A stretch of 64,000 nt of DNA from Chlorobiaceae bacterium (GTDB lineage: Bacteria > Bacteroidota > Chlorobiia > Chlorobiales > Chlorobiaceae), in contig JAAXWS010000008.1 in assembly GCA_013334865.1 (NCBI GenBank), forward strand, positions 62,001 through 126,000, written 5' to 3'. A model generated the notes under the pieces. The model saw only the letters and a list, made by a program, of their open reading frames with translations, ran no database searches and was not told the DNA's origin. A program made the translations under genes and the position numbers. Positions within the stretch are counted from its first letter, which is position 1. Each line of letters opens with the position of its first letter. Below are positions 57,409 to 64,000 of this stretch, piece by piece.

Positions 57409-59529
57409 TCAGAACCCGGTCTCACGGATCAGGACGCCGGCCGCACGCTTCACCAGCCTGCCGAGCATGCTCTCCGGTTTGCACCGGAGCACCAGCGTTC
57501 CCCGGTACTGCCCTGCCGGAAGCCCCGTCTTGCCTGTCGGTGACCAGAAGACCCTGTAGACCGCCTTTTCCGGGACCACATCGCCGTTCTTGGCGATCCT
57601 TGCCGGAATTGCCCCTTTGTAGACCGAAGCCAGCACCGGGCGATCGAGCACGTCGGAGCCTACGGCCTCGACGGCGGACACCCTGCCGGCGAGCGGGGGC
57701 TGGTCAGGGTTTTCAGGGTAGAAGATGCACGAGGCTCCCGCCGAAACCCGGTCGAGATCCTCTTCGGAGATGTAGCTCTCGCCGGTGATCGGCCCGCCGC
57801 CGAGCATGGTCAGCAACGGAGTGTCCCTGGCTACCCACTGGCCGGGGGCGAGATCCCTCGACAGCTTCTCCACCCTGCCGGCGAACGCGGCGGAGATCAC
57901 CAGCCGCTCCCTGCGGTCGAGATAGACGTCCAGCCGGCTTTCTGCGGATTCTAGCTCGCGCTGGGCCACGAGCCTCCCCGACTGCCTGGTGAGGTCTGCG
58001 GCCGTCGCGGCGATCTGCCAGCGCATGATCTCGGCCTGCCGCTGCTCCCTGGAGATCCGGTACTCGAGTTCCGGCGATTCGAGGGTGATGAGCACCTGCC
58101 CCTTTGCCGCACGGTCGCCCTGCCGGACGGACATCGTCTGAACGAAGGAGTTTTCCGGTGCGTAGAAGACGGCCTGTTCCGAAGGGCGGAGCAGGGCCGG
58201 AGCCTGGACCGAGAAGCTCAGCGGAAGCACCAGCAGGGCAAGGATGGCGCCGGCTGCCCAGGCAGTAGCCTTCGTATGGCGGTTCCAGGACAACCTTTCG
58301 CGGAACCCGTACCAGACCCTGAACTCCCTGATGAACGGCAGGGAGACAAACCAGCCGAACTCGACGAAGAACAGGATGATGCCCAGCGCCTTGAAAAAAT
58401 AGTGGTAGACGAGCAGGGCGATGCCGGTGAACAGGACGAGCCGGTAACCCCAGACCCCGAGTGCGTAGGCGATCAGGATGTTCCGGGTATGGGGGTCCCA
58501 CTCCTCGGGAGGGGGATCGCCGAGCCCGAAGAGCTTCTCCCGTATCCACCATCGGCCCATCGCGAAGCTTCGGTCGAAGAGGTTGGCGATGCCGAGCCAG
58601 TCGGAGAAGAGGTAGTAGCCGTCGAACCTCATGTAGGGCATGAGGTTGACCGCAAGCGTCCTCAGCCAGGAGGTCGTCGCCACCATCAGGGCGGCGCTGC
58701 GGAACCCTCCCTCCGGCAGGAAGTTCCAGAGGAAGGTGGCGGCGACGGCAAGGGCAAGTTCGGCAAGCATCCCCGCGGCGCCGACGGCCATGCGCTTCTT
58801 CTTCGAGGTCAGGAGCCATACCTCGCTGGCATCGGTATAGAGCACCGGGGTCATCACGAGGAACACGACCCCCATGCTGGTCACCCTGCAGCCGTGGCGG
58901 TAGGCCGTATAGCCGTGGCCGAGTTCGTGCACCGCTTTGACCAGGAACGTGGCGACACCGAACCAGATGAGGCCCTGCAGGGAGAAGAAATGGCTGAGTC
59001 CGTGGGTAAACTCGTTCCACTGGCGCCCGGCGAGGTAAATGCCTGCCAGCCCCAGGAAAAGTATGACGGGTACCATGAGCGGTGAGTAAGCCCACCTTAT
59101 GAAGGGGTATGTCCTGGCGAGGAGACGCTCGGGATTGAACAGGTGGATCCGGAAATAGAGGTAGTGCTCCAGAAGGAACTTCAACGTATGGAAGCGCCCT
59201 TTCAACACCCTCGACAGCAGGAGCCCCCGTCCTTCGGCCCCCGACACCTGCACCAGTTCATGGATGACCAGGAACCTCGCCATCTCCATCACATCTTCCG
59301 GATCGGCGTCCAGGGTGCTCTCATCGCGGACCCCCGCCGCGATGCGCCCTGGGTCCCCGGCTCCCCAGCGGCAAAGGATTTCAAAACCGAGCCGGTCGAT
59401 CTGGAAGAAGCGGTTCCTCGACGGGTCGTGGAGGATCCAGAGCGGCGAACCGTCACGTGCCGCTGGCCCCGGATTAAGTGAAAGGTCCTCCCTGAGCGCG
59501 GGCAGACCCCTGGGCTGCTGCCTCTCCAT
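57409..59529 (-). CDS. M50-type membrane metalloprotease fused to an HlyD/lipoyl domain
   Basis: 706 aa from the ATG at 59529, 2 bp after the preceding stop. In order: an N-terminal PqqD-like segment (LHDPSRNRFFQIDRLGFEIL, about 32-95), membrane spans from about 147, the zinc site HELGH (201-205), the distal NLMPYMRFDGYYLFSDWLG (295-313) carrying the third ligand Asp, further spans to about 440, and a barrel-sandwich/HlyD domain with coiled coil to the end. Catalytic residues are intact. This is the 'putative peptide zinc metalloprotease' (YydH-like) branch. It is the last gene of the export cluster. Confidence 0.88.
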   Translation of the reverse strand: MERQQPRGLPALREDLSLNPGPAARDGSPLWILHDPSRNRFFQIDRLGFEILCRWGAGDPGRIAAGVRDESTLDADPEDVMEMARFLVIHELVQVSGAEGRGLLLSRVLKGRFHTLKFLLEHYLYFRIHLFNPERLLARTYPFIRWAYSPLMVPVILFLGLAGIYLAGRQWNEFTHGLSHFFSLQGLIWFGVATFLVKAVHELGHGYTAYRHGCRVTSMGVVFLVMTPVLYTDASEVWLLTSKKKRMAVGAAGMLAELALAVAATFLWNFLPEGGFRSAALMVATTSWLRTLAVNLMPYMRFDGYYLFSDWLGIANLFDRSFAMGRWWIREKLFGLGDPPPEEWDPHTRNILIAYALGVWGYRLVLFTGIALLVYHYFFKALGIILFFVEFGWFVSLPFIREFRVWYGFRERLSWNRHTKATAWAAGAILALLVLPLSFSVQAPALLRPSEQAVFYAPENSFVQTMSVRQGDRAAKGQVLITLESPELEYRISREQRQAEIMRWQIAATAADLTRQSGRLVAQRELESAESRLDVYLDRRERLVISAAFAGRVEKLSRDLAPGQWVARDTPLLTMLGGGPITGESYISEEDLDRVSAGASCIFYPENPDQPPLAGRVSAVEAVGSDVLDRPVLASVYKGAIPARIAKNGDVVPEKAVYRVFWSPTGKTGLPAGQYRGTLVLRCKPESMLGRLVKRAAGVLIRETGF

Positions 59530-59531
59530 GG

Positions 59532-60881
59532 CTACACCCCTACCCAGCGCCGCAATGCGGCAACCGGCCTGCGGAAAATGTAGTAAACGAGCGGGACGCG
59601 CTGCCCGTAGACCTTGGCCGTACCCTTCAGGCCGACCCTCGGCAGTTCCCTTTGATCGGAGAAGCTGGCTTCGAGGTTGTAGACCAGAGTGCCGTCGGGT
59701 CGGGCCTCTGGCGTGTAGGAGGCGTAAACGAGCCTGGAGTGCACGGCTTTGAGCGGGTTCGATGAAAGGAAGAAGACCACTTCGGCTCCGTTGTCGAATG
59801 CTACGGCATCCTCCACGGCCAGCCAGATGTCGAGTTTGACGCGTTTGGGGTCGGTGATGGTCAGGATGCGTTCCCCGGTCTTCACCGGACGCCCGGCCCA
59901 CTCTTCAGGATCCGCATAGACCGCCACGCCTGATCGTTCGGCCCGGATGACGGTCCGGTCGAGCTGGTCGAACGCGTAGTCCTCCTCGGTGCGCAGCGTC
60001 GCCACCTTCGAGCGGAGCACGGACATCTCCGACATGCTGGAGCGGTCGAATATCGACTGCTGGGCCGCACGGCGGTACTCCGCCTCGGCGACAAGCCGGT
60101 TCTGACGGGAGACGGCAAGCTGGTTCTCGAGGTTCTGCCGCTCGAAACGGACAAGGACCTCTCCGGACTTCACCACCTTGTTCGGAAGCACGTCGATGCT
60201 CTGGACGATCCCGTCGATCGGAGCCCTGAGGACCCACGGATCGCGGGCCGCCACTTCAGCGGGGGCGAGCACCGAGATCCGGACGGGGAAAAGTGACACG
60301 ACCAGCAGGGCTGCGATGAGGTAGGTCAGTTTCTTTCTGTCGAGGGACAGTCGTTCGGGTATCCGCAGCCTGCGCTTCGGCTTGAGGCCGTCGAGGGCGT
60401 GGCCGTAAGCCTCGGCAAGCTGGAACAGCAGGGCCAGCTCTTCGTCCCTGAAAGGTTCAGGCCTTGCGAGCAACAGGAGCGCCCCCAAGGTGCCATCCCT
60501 GGCGGCAAGGGGGAGAGCAAGGGCATGTTCAGGAAGCCAGTCGCCCCAATCGGCGGCAACGGCATCCTCGACGTCGGCCGCCGTGACCCTGAAAGGGGGA
60601 AGCCCTTTTTCGGGCATGAGATTTCCGGCTTTCCTGCGCAATGAGGCCATCAGGCGCTTCAGCCACACGACGAACGGGGCGTTGGAGTCGGGAAGGCTGA
60701 CGCCGGAAAGAGCACTGAGCCCCTCGAAGCCGGGCTCCCAGAGCGCAGCCTGGCGGTAAGGAACGAGGGAGTTTGTCTCGTTGACGATCACATATCGGAG
60801 CGAGGGAAGGGTCTCTGCCCTCCGAGCCATGCGTTCGATTTCGAGCAGGAGCCCGAGGGTGCCCAGGCGAAGGTCGTCCAT
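59532..60881 (-). CDS. HlyD adaptor with N-terminal GAF-like sensor domain
   Basis: 449 aa. Residues about 1-165 form a cytoplasmic GAF-like domain (SLRYVIVNETNSLVPYRQAAL, then ALALPLAARDGTLGALLLLAR). One membrane span (about 184-202) leads to a periplasmic HlyD adaptor: PIDGIVQSIDVLPNKVVKSGE, a short coiled coil, and RAERSGVAVYADPEEWAGRPVKTGE. Fusion of a sensor-type domain to an adaptor is unusual for classical efflux systems. It lies 5 bp behind the HlyD gene and 2 bp ahead of the M50 gene. Confidence 0.85.
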   Translation of the reverse strand: MDDLRLGTLGLLLEIERMARRAETLPSLRYVIVNETNSLVPYRQAALWEPGFEGLSALSGVSLPDSNAPFVVWLKRLMASLRRKAGNLMPEKGLPPFRVTAADVEDAVAADWGDWLPEHALALPLAARDGTLGALLLLARPEPFRDEELALLFQLAEAYGHALDGLKPKRRLRIPERLSLDRKKLTYLIAALLVVSLFPVRISVLAPAEVAARDPWVLRAPIDGIVQSIDVLPNKVVKSGEVLVRFERQNLENQLAVSRQNRLVAEAEYRRAAQQSIFDRSSMSEMSVLRSKVATLRTEEDYAFDQLDRTVIRAERSGVAVYADPEEWAGRPVKTGERILTITDPKRVKLDIWLAVEDAVAFDNGAEVVFFLSSNPLKAVHSRLVYASYTPEARPDGTLVYNLEASFSDQRELPRVGLKGTAKVYGQRVPLVYYIFRRPVAALRRWVGV

Positions 60882-60886
60882 CGCCG

Positions 60887-61681
60887 TTACGGTTTCGGCG
60901 CGTCGAAAATGGCGTGTCCGCTCATGCCCGGCAACAGTTCAGGGTTGTTGCCCCTGAAACGGCCGAAAATGCTCACCGACTGGCTCACCGCATCGATCGA
61001 CACCCCGGTCGCGCGAACCTCCGCGTCATACTGGCGGTCAAGCTCGTCGATCCACACCTTGAAAAGCTGGCCCTTTTTGAGCCACTTCAGCCACTTCGAC
61101 GGGACGAACATCTGTATCTCCAGGTTCCCGGTATTGACGATCCTCATGAGCGGGTCCCCCTTCTTGACCGTCTGGAAACGCTGGACGTGCATTTCCGAGA
61201 CCCCGCCCGAAAACGGGGCGATCACCTGGCATTTCTTCAGCGCCTCGAGTTCTATTGAAGCCTCCGCCCTGGCCTTGCCCAATTCCGCCTTAGCCGTGGA
61301 GACCTCCATGGTGCTGGAGGAACCCATCTGATAGAGCTTCAACTGGATGTCCGAGTTCTTTTCGGCAAGGTTCAGCACCGCCGTGGCCCGGTCGTAGCGC
61401 CCCTGTTCGGTCACCGAATCAAAACCGAGGAGCAGCGCCCCCTTGCGGAACTTGTCACCCTCGCGAAAGGGAATCTGTATCACCTTGCCATCCATGGGCG
61501 AGGCGACCGTCACCTGTTCACGGGCGATGACCTGGACCAGGATCTCTCCTGACGAAGGACGTTTTTTGGCATCAGAATTGCCAGCCGAAGCGGAGCAAGG
61601 CATGGCAAGCAATCCTGCCAGAGCCATGGCGGCGAAGGGTTTCCTGAAAATTGGAAAGCGCAGGTATTGCTGGTTGAACAT
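60887..61681 (-). CDS. HlyD-type periplasmic adaptor
   Basis: 264 aa. A signal peptide (FAAMALAGLLAMPCSASA) is followed by the lipoyl half-motif ASPMDGKVIQIPFREGDKFRKGA, a coiled coil, and CQVIAPFSGGVSEMHVQRFQTVKKGD. The beta-barrel ends the protein without a long C-terminal domain, so it is shorter than usual RND adaptors. SD AGGAG lies 8 bp before the start. Confidence 0.87.
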   Translation of the reverse strand: MFNQQYLRFPIFRKPFAAMALAGLLAMPCSASAGNSDAKKRPSSGEILVQVIAREQVTVASPMDGKVIQIPFREGDKFRKGALLLGFDSVTEQGRYDRATAVLNLAEKNSDIQLKLYQMGSSSTMEVSTAKAELGKARAEASIELEALKKCQVIAPFSGGVSEMHVQRFQTVKKGDPLMRIVNTGNLEIQMFVPSKWLKWLKKGQLFKVWIDELDRQYDAEVRATGVSIDAVSQSVSIFGRFRGNNPELLPGMSGHAIFDAPKP

Positions 61682-61720
61682 GTAAAACTCCTGTGATCCG
61701 GACGCTTCCGGTAGGAAAGG

Positions 61721-63133
61721 TTACTGTGATACGTATTCGAAATTCTGCACGGCAAGGACCCTGCCAGCGCCGGTGACCACCTTGACCGTCCAGGTACCTG
61801 TCAATTCAGGCTCCATCCATTTACGCGACCAGATCCTCCAGCTCGACGACCTGATTTTTCCTAAGGGGAATCGGGAAACAACCTTGCCGTCATGTTCCCA
61901 CACATGGGTCACGCGCTCTCCTTTCACTCCGTTCAGCTCAGTGAAGCAGTAGAGCTTCGCATCCCCGGTTGTGGCATTCGCAAGAGTCTCGCCGGGCTTC
62001 CTGGCCTTGAGGTCGATCGTGCGGGTTATGATGCAGCTGCTGGCCGCAACTTCCTCCCCGCCCTGTTGGGCCGCAACCGGAAGAGGCCGGGCAACGGGAG
62101 CAGGCGAAGGTCTCTGTGCGGGAGATGGTTCTGAAACAGCCTTCGACACCGGGGCCGGATCAACCGCAGGCTTCGGAGATGAAAGCACTTCAGTGGCTGG
62201 TTTGACAGGAGCCACCTTAGCCGAAGGAGCTTCGGAGACTGCCGGAGGAAGTTCTTCCGCCTTGAGCACAGGGGTAGGCTTTGGGACAGGTGATGCGTTT
62301 TCGGCCTGGCGCTCAAGCTCACGAAGCTGATGCTGGAGCCCGGTGTCGCCGGTAATGGCGATGGCTTCCTCCCAGGCCGCCCGTGCAGCCTTGAGCTCTC
62401 CCTTGGCGAACAGGTCGTTGCCCCTGGCGAACGCATCCCGGGCCTGCCGCTCCTTTTCGGCTGCCGCCAGCTCCTTCTGGCGCTCGGCTTCCCGTTTCCG
62501 GGCCGCATCCTCCTCCCGCTTTGCGAGTTCCCTCCTGAGGTCGGGCAACTTAGACTTGACATATCGGTCTGCGCCGGCATTGGCGGGATCGAGCGAAAGC
62601 ACCTCGGCGAACTTCGCCTCGGCGGCGTCACACTTCTCCTGCCTGTACAGGGCCACTCCCTCTTCGTAGGTCGCATCGATGCGGTGCTTCAGGGCTGCGG
62701 CTTCCTGCTCGAGCTTCTCGCGAGCGGCCTTTTCTGCCGAGAGCCTTTCGGCCTCTGCACGTGCTGCCTTTTCCCTGGCCTGTCGTGCCTGTTCGGCGAT
62801 ATGCCCTTTCATTTCGGGATTGCCGGAGATGTCGAGGGCCTCCTTCCAGGCCTTCGTTGCGCCTTCGAGGTCGCCCGAAGAGTACAGCGCATTACCACGC
62901 TCGAACGATTCGCGGGCTTTCGACTCCCTGGCCTCGTTGCGGCGTTCGCGCTCCCGCTGGTCGATGATCTGGTCAACCTTCCTGATGTTCTCCTGCGCCT
63001 GGAAGATGAGCTCCTTCAGCGTCGCCTTGGACTTTTCATAACTGCCAGCCCCCTCTTCGGCATGCAGGCTGGCCGTAACCGGAATCATGAGGACGAACAG
63101 GCCGGCGGCGAACCTTGAAATCCTTTTGCTCAT
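61721..63133 (-). CDS. Periplasmic TPR and DUF2914 protein
   Basis: 470 aa from the ATG at 63133, whose A is shared with the TAA stop of the upstream gene (TAATG), so translation is coupled. A signal peptide (FAAGLFVLMIPVTASLHA) leads to at least three TPR-like units (ARESFERGNALYSSGDLEGA; EGVALYRQEKCDAAEAKFAE; AFARGNDLFAKGELKAARAA) in long Ala/Glu helices. A Pro/Ala/Lys linker and a C-terminal DUF2914 domain (TRTIDLKARKPGETL ... KIRSSSWRIWSRKWMEPEL) follow. DUF2914 is of unknown function and is typically extracytoplasmic. Confidence 0.82.
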   Translation of the reverse strand: MSKRISRFAAGLFVLMIPVTASLHAEEGAGSYEKSKATLKELIFQAQENIRKVDQIIDQRERERRNEARESKARESFERGNALYSSGDLEGATKAWKEALDISGNPEMKGHIAEQARQAREKAARAEAERLSAEKAAREKLEQEAAALKHRIDATYEEGVALYRQEKCDAAEAKFAEVLSLDPANAGADRYVKSKLPDLRRELAKREEDAARKREAERQKELAAAEKERQARDAFARGNDLFAKGELKAARAAWEEAIAITGDTGLQHQLRELERQAENASPVPKPTPVLKAEELPPAVSEAPSAKVAPVKPATEVLSSPKPAVDPAPVSKAVSEPSPAQRPSPAPVARPLPVAAQQGGEEVAASSCIITRTIDLKARKPGETLANATTGDAKLYCFTELNGVKGERVTHVWEHDGKVVSRFPLGKIRSSSWRIWSRKWMEPELTGTWTVKVVTGAGRVLAVQNFEYVSQ

Positions 63134-64000
63134 TACTGCAACTCCTTTTGTGCCTTGATGATTATATCGTTCCACATCTGCCTGGATTCGTCATGCCGGC
63201 CTTCTTTTTCGAGGCTCCGCGCCTGTTCTGCGAGCGAGGACAATTCCGAAGCGCACGAGATGCTCTTGAGGCGGGCCGGGATGAGGATTCCGGTATACTG
63301 CCTTGCCGGCTCGTTGACCGGGTCGAGCAAAAGCAGCTCGCGGAAAGCCGCCTCCGACCTGGTGTACTCTTCACGGTCGAACAGGCCGACCGCGCCGGCA
63401 TAGAGTTCCGAGACCTTCGACATCCGGGTTCTCTCCTCATCGAGCCAGCCGAACCGGCCCTGGCTCCATGCGCCGAAGGCTCGGGAAATGGTATCGGTCA
63501 TCCGCTCGAGGCTGACGTCGGCATCGATTTCCGGAAGCGGGTCAAGGCCTATCGACGCATACACGTTGCCCCTTGCCTGCTCCAGCGCGGCATGCGACTG
63601 GTACAGGGCGAGTTCCGCCTTCAGTGCGTTGGCTTCGGCCTGGATGAAATCACGCTGGCTCACCACGTCAAGGGAGCGGCCCGTGCGGATATACCAGAGC
63701 ACCTGTTCCTCGATCTCCCGCTGTTTACGGTTCAGGGCGTACTGCTTCAAAGCGGAGCCGTACTCCTGGTTGCTGATGTAGACCTGCGACAGCACCGCCA
63801 TGGAGAGGGCGAGGGTGTTCGCCCTGGCGACGGACTTGCCGGCTTTGGCCGCGTTGATGCGGCTGGGCGCCGACGGCAGGCTCATGATGTTCCATGCGAC
63901 GTTCAGACCACCTTCGTACCAGTTGTTGTAGGCCGAGAAACTGTTGCTGGTATACTCCTTCGAGCCGGTCAGCTGGATTCCGGGAAGCAGGCGGGCCAGC
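63133..64000 (-). CDS. TolC-family outer membrane factor with TPR tail (N-terminus beyond the window)
   Basis: 289 codons are visible; the frame is open at the window edge. The visible start (LLPGIQLTGSKEYTSNSFSA, YEGGLNVAWNIMSLPSAP) is the second strand-and-helix repeat of a TolC-type channel, with long helices (QYALNRKQREIEEQV; ALYQSHAALEQARGNVYASIGLDPLP). Instead of ending there, it carries on for about 110 residues of TPR-like repeats (YAGAVGLFDREEYTRSEAAF), unusual for TolC proteins and resembling the TPR protein that follows. Confidence 0.85.
   Translation of the reverse strand, partial: LARLLPGIQLTGSKEYTSNSFSAYNNWYEGGLNVAWNIMSLPSAPSRINAAKAGKSVARANTLALSMAVLSQVYISNQEYGSALKQYALNRKQREIEEQVLWYIRTGRSLDVVSQRDFIQAEANALKAELALYQSHAALEQARGNVYASIGLDPLPEIDADVSLERMTDTISRAFGAWSQGRFGWLDEERTRMSKVSELYAGAVGLFDREEYTRSEAAFRELLLLDPVNEPARQYTGILIPARLKSISCASELSSLAEQARSLEKEGRHDESRQMWNDIIIKAQKELQ

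Follow-up and report, generated by a model that had tools for sequence, protein, structure and literature searches.

A TolC, HlyD and M50-protease gene cluster of a Chlorobiaceae bacterium as candidate export machinery for giant LEPR-tagged surface proteins

The window analysed here is a stretch of 64,000 nucleotides from a Chlorobiaceae bacterium (GCA_013334865.1; contig JAAXWS010000008.1, positions 62,001 to 126,000), whose last part, positions 57409-64000, is packed with five co-directional minus-strand genes encoding a TolC-TPR protein, a TPR-DUF2914 protein, an HlyD protein, a GAF-HlyD protein and a fusion of an M50 protease with an HlyD part (M50-HlyD). On the window scale, the features are:

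57409..59529, minus strand: M50-HlyD, 706 aa, with a putative RRE/PqqD-like N-domain, a membrane M50 domain and a periplasmic adaptor domain (Pfam, fold comparison)
59245..59529, minus strand: N-terminal domain of M50-HlyD, predicted beta3-alpha3 and RRE/PqqD-like (model pLDDT 58; leader-binding RRE structures at the top of the PDB ranking, E 0.15-0.95, not significant alone)
58915..58929, minus strand: HELGH zinc-binding motif of M50-HlyD, residues 201-205, intact (HExxH in 48/48 aligned proteins)
58615..58629, minus strand: RFDGY, third zinc ligand motif of M50, residues 301-305 ([RK][FWLY]D[GA]Y in 48/48)
57460..58212, minus strand: periplasmic HlyD/adaptor part of M50-HlyD, alpha hairpin, lipoyl and barrel (Pfam HlyD_3, fold match)
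59532..60881, minus strand: GAF-HlyD, 449 aa, with GAF, one transmembrane helix (184-212) and HlyD (Pfam, hydropathy)
60887..61681, minus strand: free periplasmic adaptor MFP/HlyD, 264 aa, with a Sec-type hydrophobic start (RND_mfp 118 bits, over cut-off)
61721..63133, minus strand: TPR-DUF2914 protein (Pfam)
63133..64000, minus strand, on to contig position 126947 (window scale 64947): TolC-family outer membrane factor with a C-terminal TPR extension (Pfam OEP)

The tolC gene, a complete ORF of 604 aa with its start outside the window, overlaps the TPR-DUF2914 gene by 1 bp, and gaps of 39 bp, 5 bp and 2 bp separate the latter from the HlyD/MFP gene, this from GAF-HlyD, and GAF-HlyD from M50-HlyD. 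The Pfam domains found were OEP, TPR, DUF2914, HlyD_3 (three proteins), GAF (weak, 1e-4), and Peptidase_M50 with HlyD_3 in a single chain; coordinates and Pfam together confirmed the five packed genes, their domains and the intact HELGH motif as described in a first-pass annotation made from the sequence alone. In GAF-HlyD, we infer a cytoplasmic GAF part and a periplasmic HlyD part. TPR genes were observed at that position only in Chlorobiaceae operons, so the TPR-DUF2914 protein is accessory and lies outside the conserved core of the five-part set first put forward, most of which is conserved across loci. Neither the cluster nor the 1.1 kb of contig past the window contains an ABC, RND or MFS gene; the contig end at 127147, 200 bp upstream of the tolC start, limits the view on the upstream side. 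A complete relative (G031), in which that side is visible, has no dedicated motor in the operon either, which bears out the earlier description of an operon without one.

M50-HlyD carries HExxH and a distal Asp ligand within a hydrophobic multi-helix domain, and since both motifs are invariant in all 48 aligned proteins, its catalytic activity appears to be under selection. The M50 part of the full-length model is mostly below pLDDT 50. The C-terminal half matches the MacA/MexA/EmrA adaptor folds (E about 2e-12), a fold shared with the MacAB/MexAB/EmrAB-TolC pumps; the cassette differs from these in having no energised inner-membrane transporter, and neither an RND nor an MFS transporter, as in such tripartite pumps, is present in the operon. 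For the N-domain, the order of three strands and three helices is predicted, and comparison of this low-confidence model with the PDB placed the RRE leader-binding structures TbiB1, lasso B1 and CteB at most of the top ranks, while the Pfam PqqD model gave no match in the domain. The daptide protease model matched both the window's M50-HlyD (2.5e-41) and a sister protein (5.7e-51, from residue 22, and so spanning the N-terminal start), each below cut-off. M50-HlyD likewise does not reach the YydH/LiaK or daptide equivalog cut-offs (142 vs 300 bits; 28 vs 225 bits). The modelled start of M50-HlyD thus shows a weak agreement in kind with an RRE/PqqD-like fold. Its earlier reading as a substrate-docking part gains from this likeness and from the N-terminal LEPR tag common to the substrates described below, which makes docking on a substrate leader plausible; the fold match itself is weak. 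Compared with the M50 metalloproteases of the YydH/LiaK and daptide RiPP pathways, M50-HlyD is a homologous membrane protease, but its chain also includes a periplasmic adaptor domain, and it is linked to proteins thousands of residues long rather than to small peptides. In G031 (C1:410532-412631; L014; L030:10496-12634), a TAG stop interrupts the M50-HlyD gene within its adaptor part, while the reading frames of the giant and of the rest of the cassette are intact.

Read in operon direction, the final 153 bases of the contig (C39) code for the C-terminal end of a further protein, ...GLSEQLAEAGRMGLFRKLHLLKAQLGADELQEKV, which stops about 47 bp ahead of tolC. In G031 the same C-terminal end closes a 6,686-codon open frame that starts near MFLALEPRILLDAAAAV and continues into DUF4347 and repeats, and this 6,686-aa giant lies directly upstream of tolC, TPR, HlyD, GAF-HlyD and M50-HlyD genes in that order. 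The genome of the window (G000) also holds a 5,067-aa ORF with the start MFIALEPRIMLDAAG that runs off another contig (C25) and has thyX and accD as neighbours, as in a further relative (G024); thyX also flanks the G031 giant. Because of this synteny with G024 and G031, C25 and C39 are likely to be the two ends of one giant gene. The substrate of the window's cassette is therefore probably the giant DUF4347/Ig-cadherin protein encoded just upstream, presumably that of C25. The first-pass annotation had stated that the substrate is not in the window; by this reading it lies just beyond the edge. A small, RiPP-like peptide is not favoured, as we noticed no small precursor, and in most loci whose sequence reaches far enough the upstream neighbour is a long gene for a repeat protein.

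From the N-terminus on, these giants comprise a LEPRxMFDAA tag, DUF4347, Ig/cadherin repeats amounting to thousands of residues and, near the C-terminus, a conserved S[LF]xxQ[LF]-like motif. A strict form of the C-terminal motif taken from the first locus set (10/27) was too narrow, and a looser form, adopted before the held-out test, was found in 12 of 16 held-out giants and in 3.4% of random windows. DUF4347 (e.g. L035:817-2016, L041:6830-8029) contains an SHG...YGC pattern and gave one weak Peptidase_C80 match, from which it may be a caspase-like, self-cleaving domain.

Every complete cassette-adjacent giant that was analysed has, close to its start, a short motif whose L, E and R do not vary (LEPRxMFDAA and variants). 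A tag regex, fixed on the first locus set before its use on held-out loci, matched 13 of 16 complete held-out giants, the remaining three reading LE[RK]R..FDA, and only 2 of 1,216 other ORFs of these loci, both of them long and giant-like. In 398 sampled Pseudomonadota genomes, M50-HlyD was present in 89; a tag profile built from 17 tags was found in 71 genomes, 69 of them with M50-HlyD, and the LEPR-XLL model NF012209 in 33, every one an M50-HlyD genome. Overall, the tag in either form occurred in 80 of the 89 M50-HlyD genomes and in 2 of the 309 others (Fisher p 7e-71), a p value that overstates independence because common ancestry and horizontal transfer inflate the co-occurrence and tags of some matched genomes trained the profile; the 307 negatives among the 309 are independent of both profile training and kinship. 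Similarly, full-length M50-HlyD and the tag were found in the same 3 of 61 relatives. DUF4347 was considered as the address tag and rejected: it occurs in 14 of these 61 genomes and does not track M50-HlyD. G031 further provides an internal control, in that an untagged DUF4347 giant of 7,284 aa (L031:2706 onward, into L045) is followed there by an LssB-type ABC gene and an HlyD gene, a classical ABC system.

The NF012209 cut-off was exceeded by the G031 and G024 giants (27.5 bits) and by a giant of a second system in the window's genome (38.8 bits, see below), and the FDAA form of the tag often scores below its cut-off; the C25 giant, which reads LEPRIMLDAAG, was not among the matches listed. 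The LEPR-XLL domain corresponds to the N-terminal tag of the sister-clade substrates described below and nearly matches that of the TolC type, but the sources read present it as a sequence model only and name no partner in transport. The tag region is on median much less hydrophobic (peak hydropathy 1.13) than the signal regions of MFP and TolC proteins (1.8-2.35), with a few tags reaching similar values.

The gene set recurs in Chlorobiaceae and across Pseudomonadota. GAF-HlyD and MFP were present in 23 of the 24 TolC-type loci of the first set, and the 40 held-out loci, several of them cut by contig ends, contained GAF-HlyD in 36, MFP in 33 and TolC in 24. On plasmids of E. coli, Kosakonia, Burkholderia, Azospirillum and Niveispirillum, the order giant, TolC, MFP, GAF-HlyD, M50-HlyD is annotated; on a Magnetospirillum plasmid, the upstream gene encodes a 492-aa repeat protein. 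Within E. coli, M50-HlyD was found in 24 of 5,426 complete genomes, with 21 of 25 places on plasmids and nearly identical copies. Recurrence in more than 60 other loci rules out a chance arrangement. Giants and efflux genes can both occupy surface-gene islands, and the adaptors, the protease and the giant could in principle serve separate functions in one such island; with co-occurrence and gene order extending over two phyla, the specificity of the motif and the control given by giants with DUF4347 only, we consider an accidental pairing of this kind highly improbable.

No ABC gene was found inside the cassette in the window, in G031, in six annotated plasmid loci or in 64 TolC-type loci. In type I secretion (HlyB/HlyD/TolC; LssB-type adhesin exporters), TolC and HlyD-type adaptors likewise stand beside a giant repeat protein, and the cassette has both of these components. 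However, it lacks the ABC transporter in the gene set that defines type I secretion, and has instead a membrane protease, GAF-HlyD and an N-terminal substrate tag. An alternative explanation is that a housekeeping or unlinked ABC exporter joins the cassette adaptors in trans, since the TolC and MFP parts resemble those of type I and efflux systems and the giants carry a conserved motif at the C-terminus, the end at which type I substrates have an uncleaved secretion signal. An LssB or PrtD protein over cut-off was present in 23 of 38 cassette genomes, a count that covers these two exporter types, and an unlinked motor is therefore possible in these 23. However, the other 15 have neither, several of them with generic ABC scores only; type I ABC homologues lie within 20 kb in just 5 of the 64 loci and never between cassette genes; and the giant beside the LssB-type ABC gene of G031 is the untagged one. 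Type I secretion with a motor in trans is thus unlikely.

The M50-HlyD tree, split at its midpoint, separates a 16-member clade, in which a SecA-like gene is adjacent in 14, from a 77-member clade, where TolC was detected beside 52 and SecA beside none, and the window's genome carries both forms. At its second locus (contig C24, L011), the order is giant end, HlyD, double-GAF-HlyD, M50-HlyD, SecA-like. Another contig (C35; L049-L051; 7172-53134) encodes an LEPRILLSADPL giant, 15,320 aa or longer, with an assembly gap of N inside it and a TolC-like gene behind; we infer that C35 and C24 adjoin. The SecA-like proteins, of about 670 aa and below the SecA cut-off, are additional to the normal SecA. 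A second, shorter SecA besides the housekeeping one is also a feature of accessory Sec (SecA2) export of large surface proteins, but here the partners are M50-HlyD and GAF-HlyD and the envelope is Gram-negative. By sequence reading, a SapC-like gene lies beside SecA-type cassettes and a LEPR giant (L121-L123, L135; G000 C35:53682-54431).

The sister clade bears on the proposal of the first-pass annotation that the membrane protease may take the place of the inner-membrane pump; in such a reading, the substrate would thread through M50-HlyD without an ATPase, driven by folding outside. That no motor is found in the cassette agrees with it, as does the position of M50-HlyD, which brings its own adaptor part, at the operon place expected for a motor gene. 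The sister clade, however, adds a SecA-type ATPase gene beside M50-HlyD, and translocation of whole proteins is not known to us for any M50 protein; the protease as pump is therefore quite improbable. In that clade the M50-HlyD/GAF-HlyD core goes together with a SecA paralogue, which makes M50-HlyD more likely a tag reader and leader protease than a pump.

How proteins of 2,000-19,000 residues leave the cell without a usual signal peptide or an adjoining ABC exporter is an open question. In our reading, to which we assign a probability of roughly 50%, the cluster encodes the machinery, and the upstream gene the substrate, of a system dedicated to exporting and processing giant surface proteins that bear a LEPR tag at the N-terminus. 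This tag would dock on the RRE/PqqD-like domain of M50-HlyD, and the M50 site would cut it off at the inner membrane. Three proteins, M50-HlyD, GAF-HlyD and the free MFP, would line up their adaptor parts as a conduit to TolC, which GAF-HlyD may gate by coupling it to a cytoplasmic signal. Passage across the inner membrane would most likely be Sec-driven, by the housekeeping SecA here and by the dedicated paralogue in the sister clade; for the TolC type this extrapolates from the sister clade, as the tag is no classical Sec signal.

The main rival is that the giant is exported otherwise and held by its N-terminus in the HlyD/TolC assembly until the M50 protease cuts the tag, when GAF-HlyD senses a cytoplasmic signal, similar to LapA/LapG adhesin retention. 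LapA-type retention parts sit at the protein N-terminus, and so do the tag and DUF4347; the C-terminal motif of the giants is conserved too, and GAF lies ahead of a single transmembrane helix in GAF-HlyD. Against this, TolC and adaptors are encoded in the cassette itself, and there are cassette genomes in which neither an LssB nor a PrtD exporter exceeds the cut-off; we regard retention and release as rather unlikely. Export through the cassette itself remains our preferred reading, and we consider it rather probable that it represents a previously undescribed Gram-negative pathway, in which a LEPR tag leads to M50-HlyD and a signal-sensing GAF-HlyD, with one form using TolC without a dedicated motor and another a SecA paralogue. 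If so, about a fifth of the sampled Pseudomonadota genomes carry an export route that has no name yet, as do some E. coli plasmids; it would combine a membrane-protease core and a cytoplasmic sensor with a readable address tag, and the LEPR-XLL domain would gain a function. No published account of the cassette was found in the open-access literature (PMC); one article deals with a PrtD-type system (PMC13274458) and another mentions an 8,000-aa LEPR-XLL protein only (PMC10868602).

Two further candidates were dismissed. A role in defence found no match in PADLOC, and clustering of neighbour genes in search of a hidden extra motor family yielded response regulators, plus the SapC-like gene in the sister clade, with no widely common ATPase. 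The response-regulator-like gene cluster lies near 19 loci (neighbourhoods L101-L180), and small 'tail fiber' (tail-collar) proteins adjoin cassettes on several plasmids (L039:17128-19235, L036:5460-6074, L042:22510-23409).
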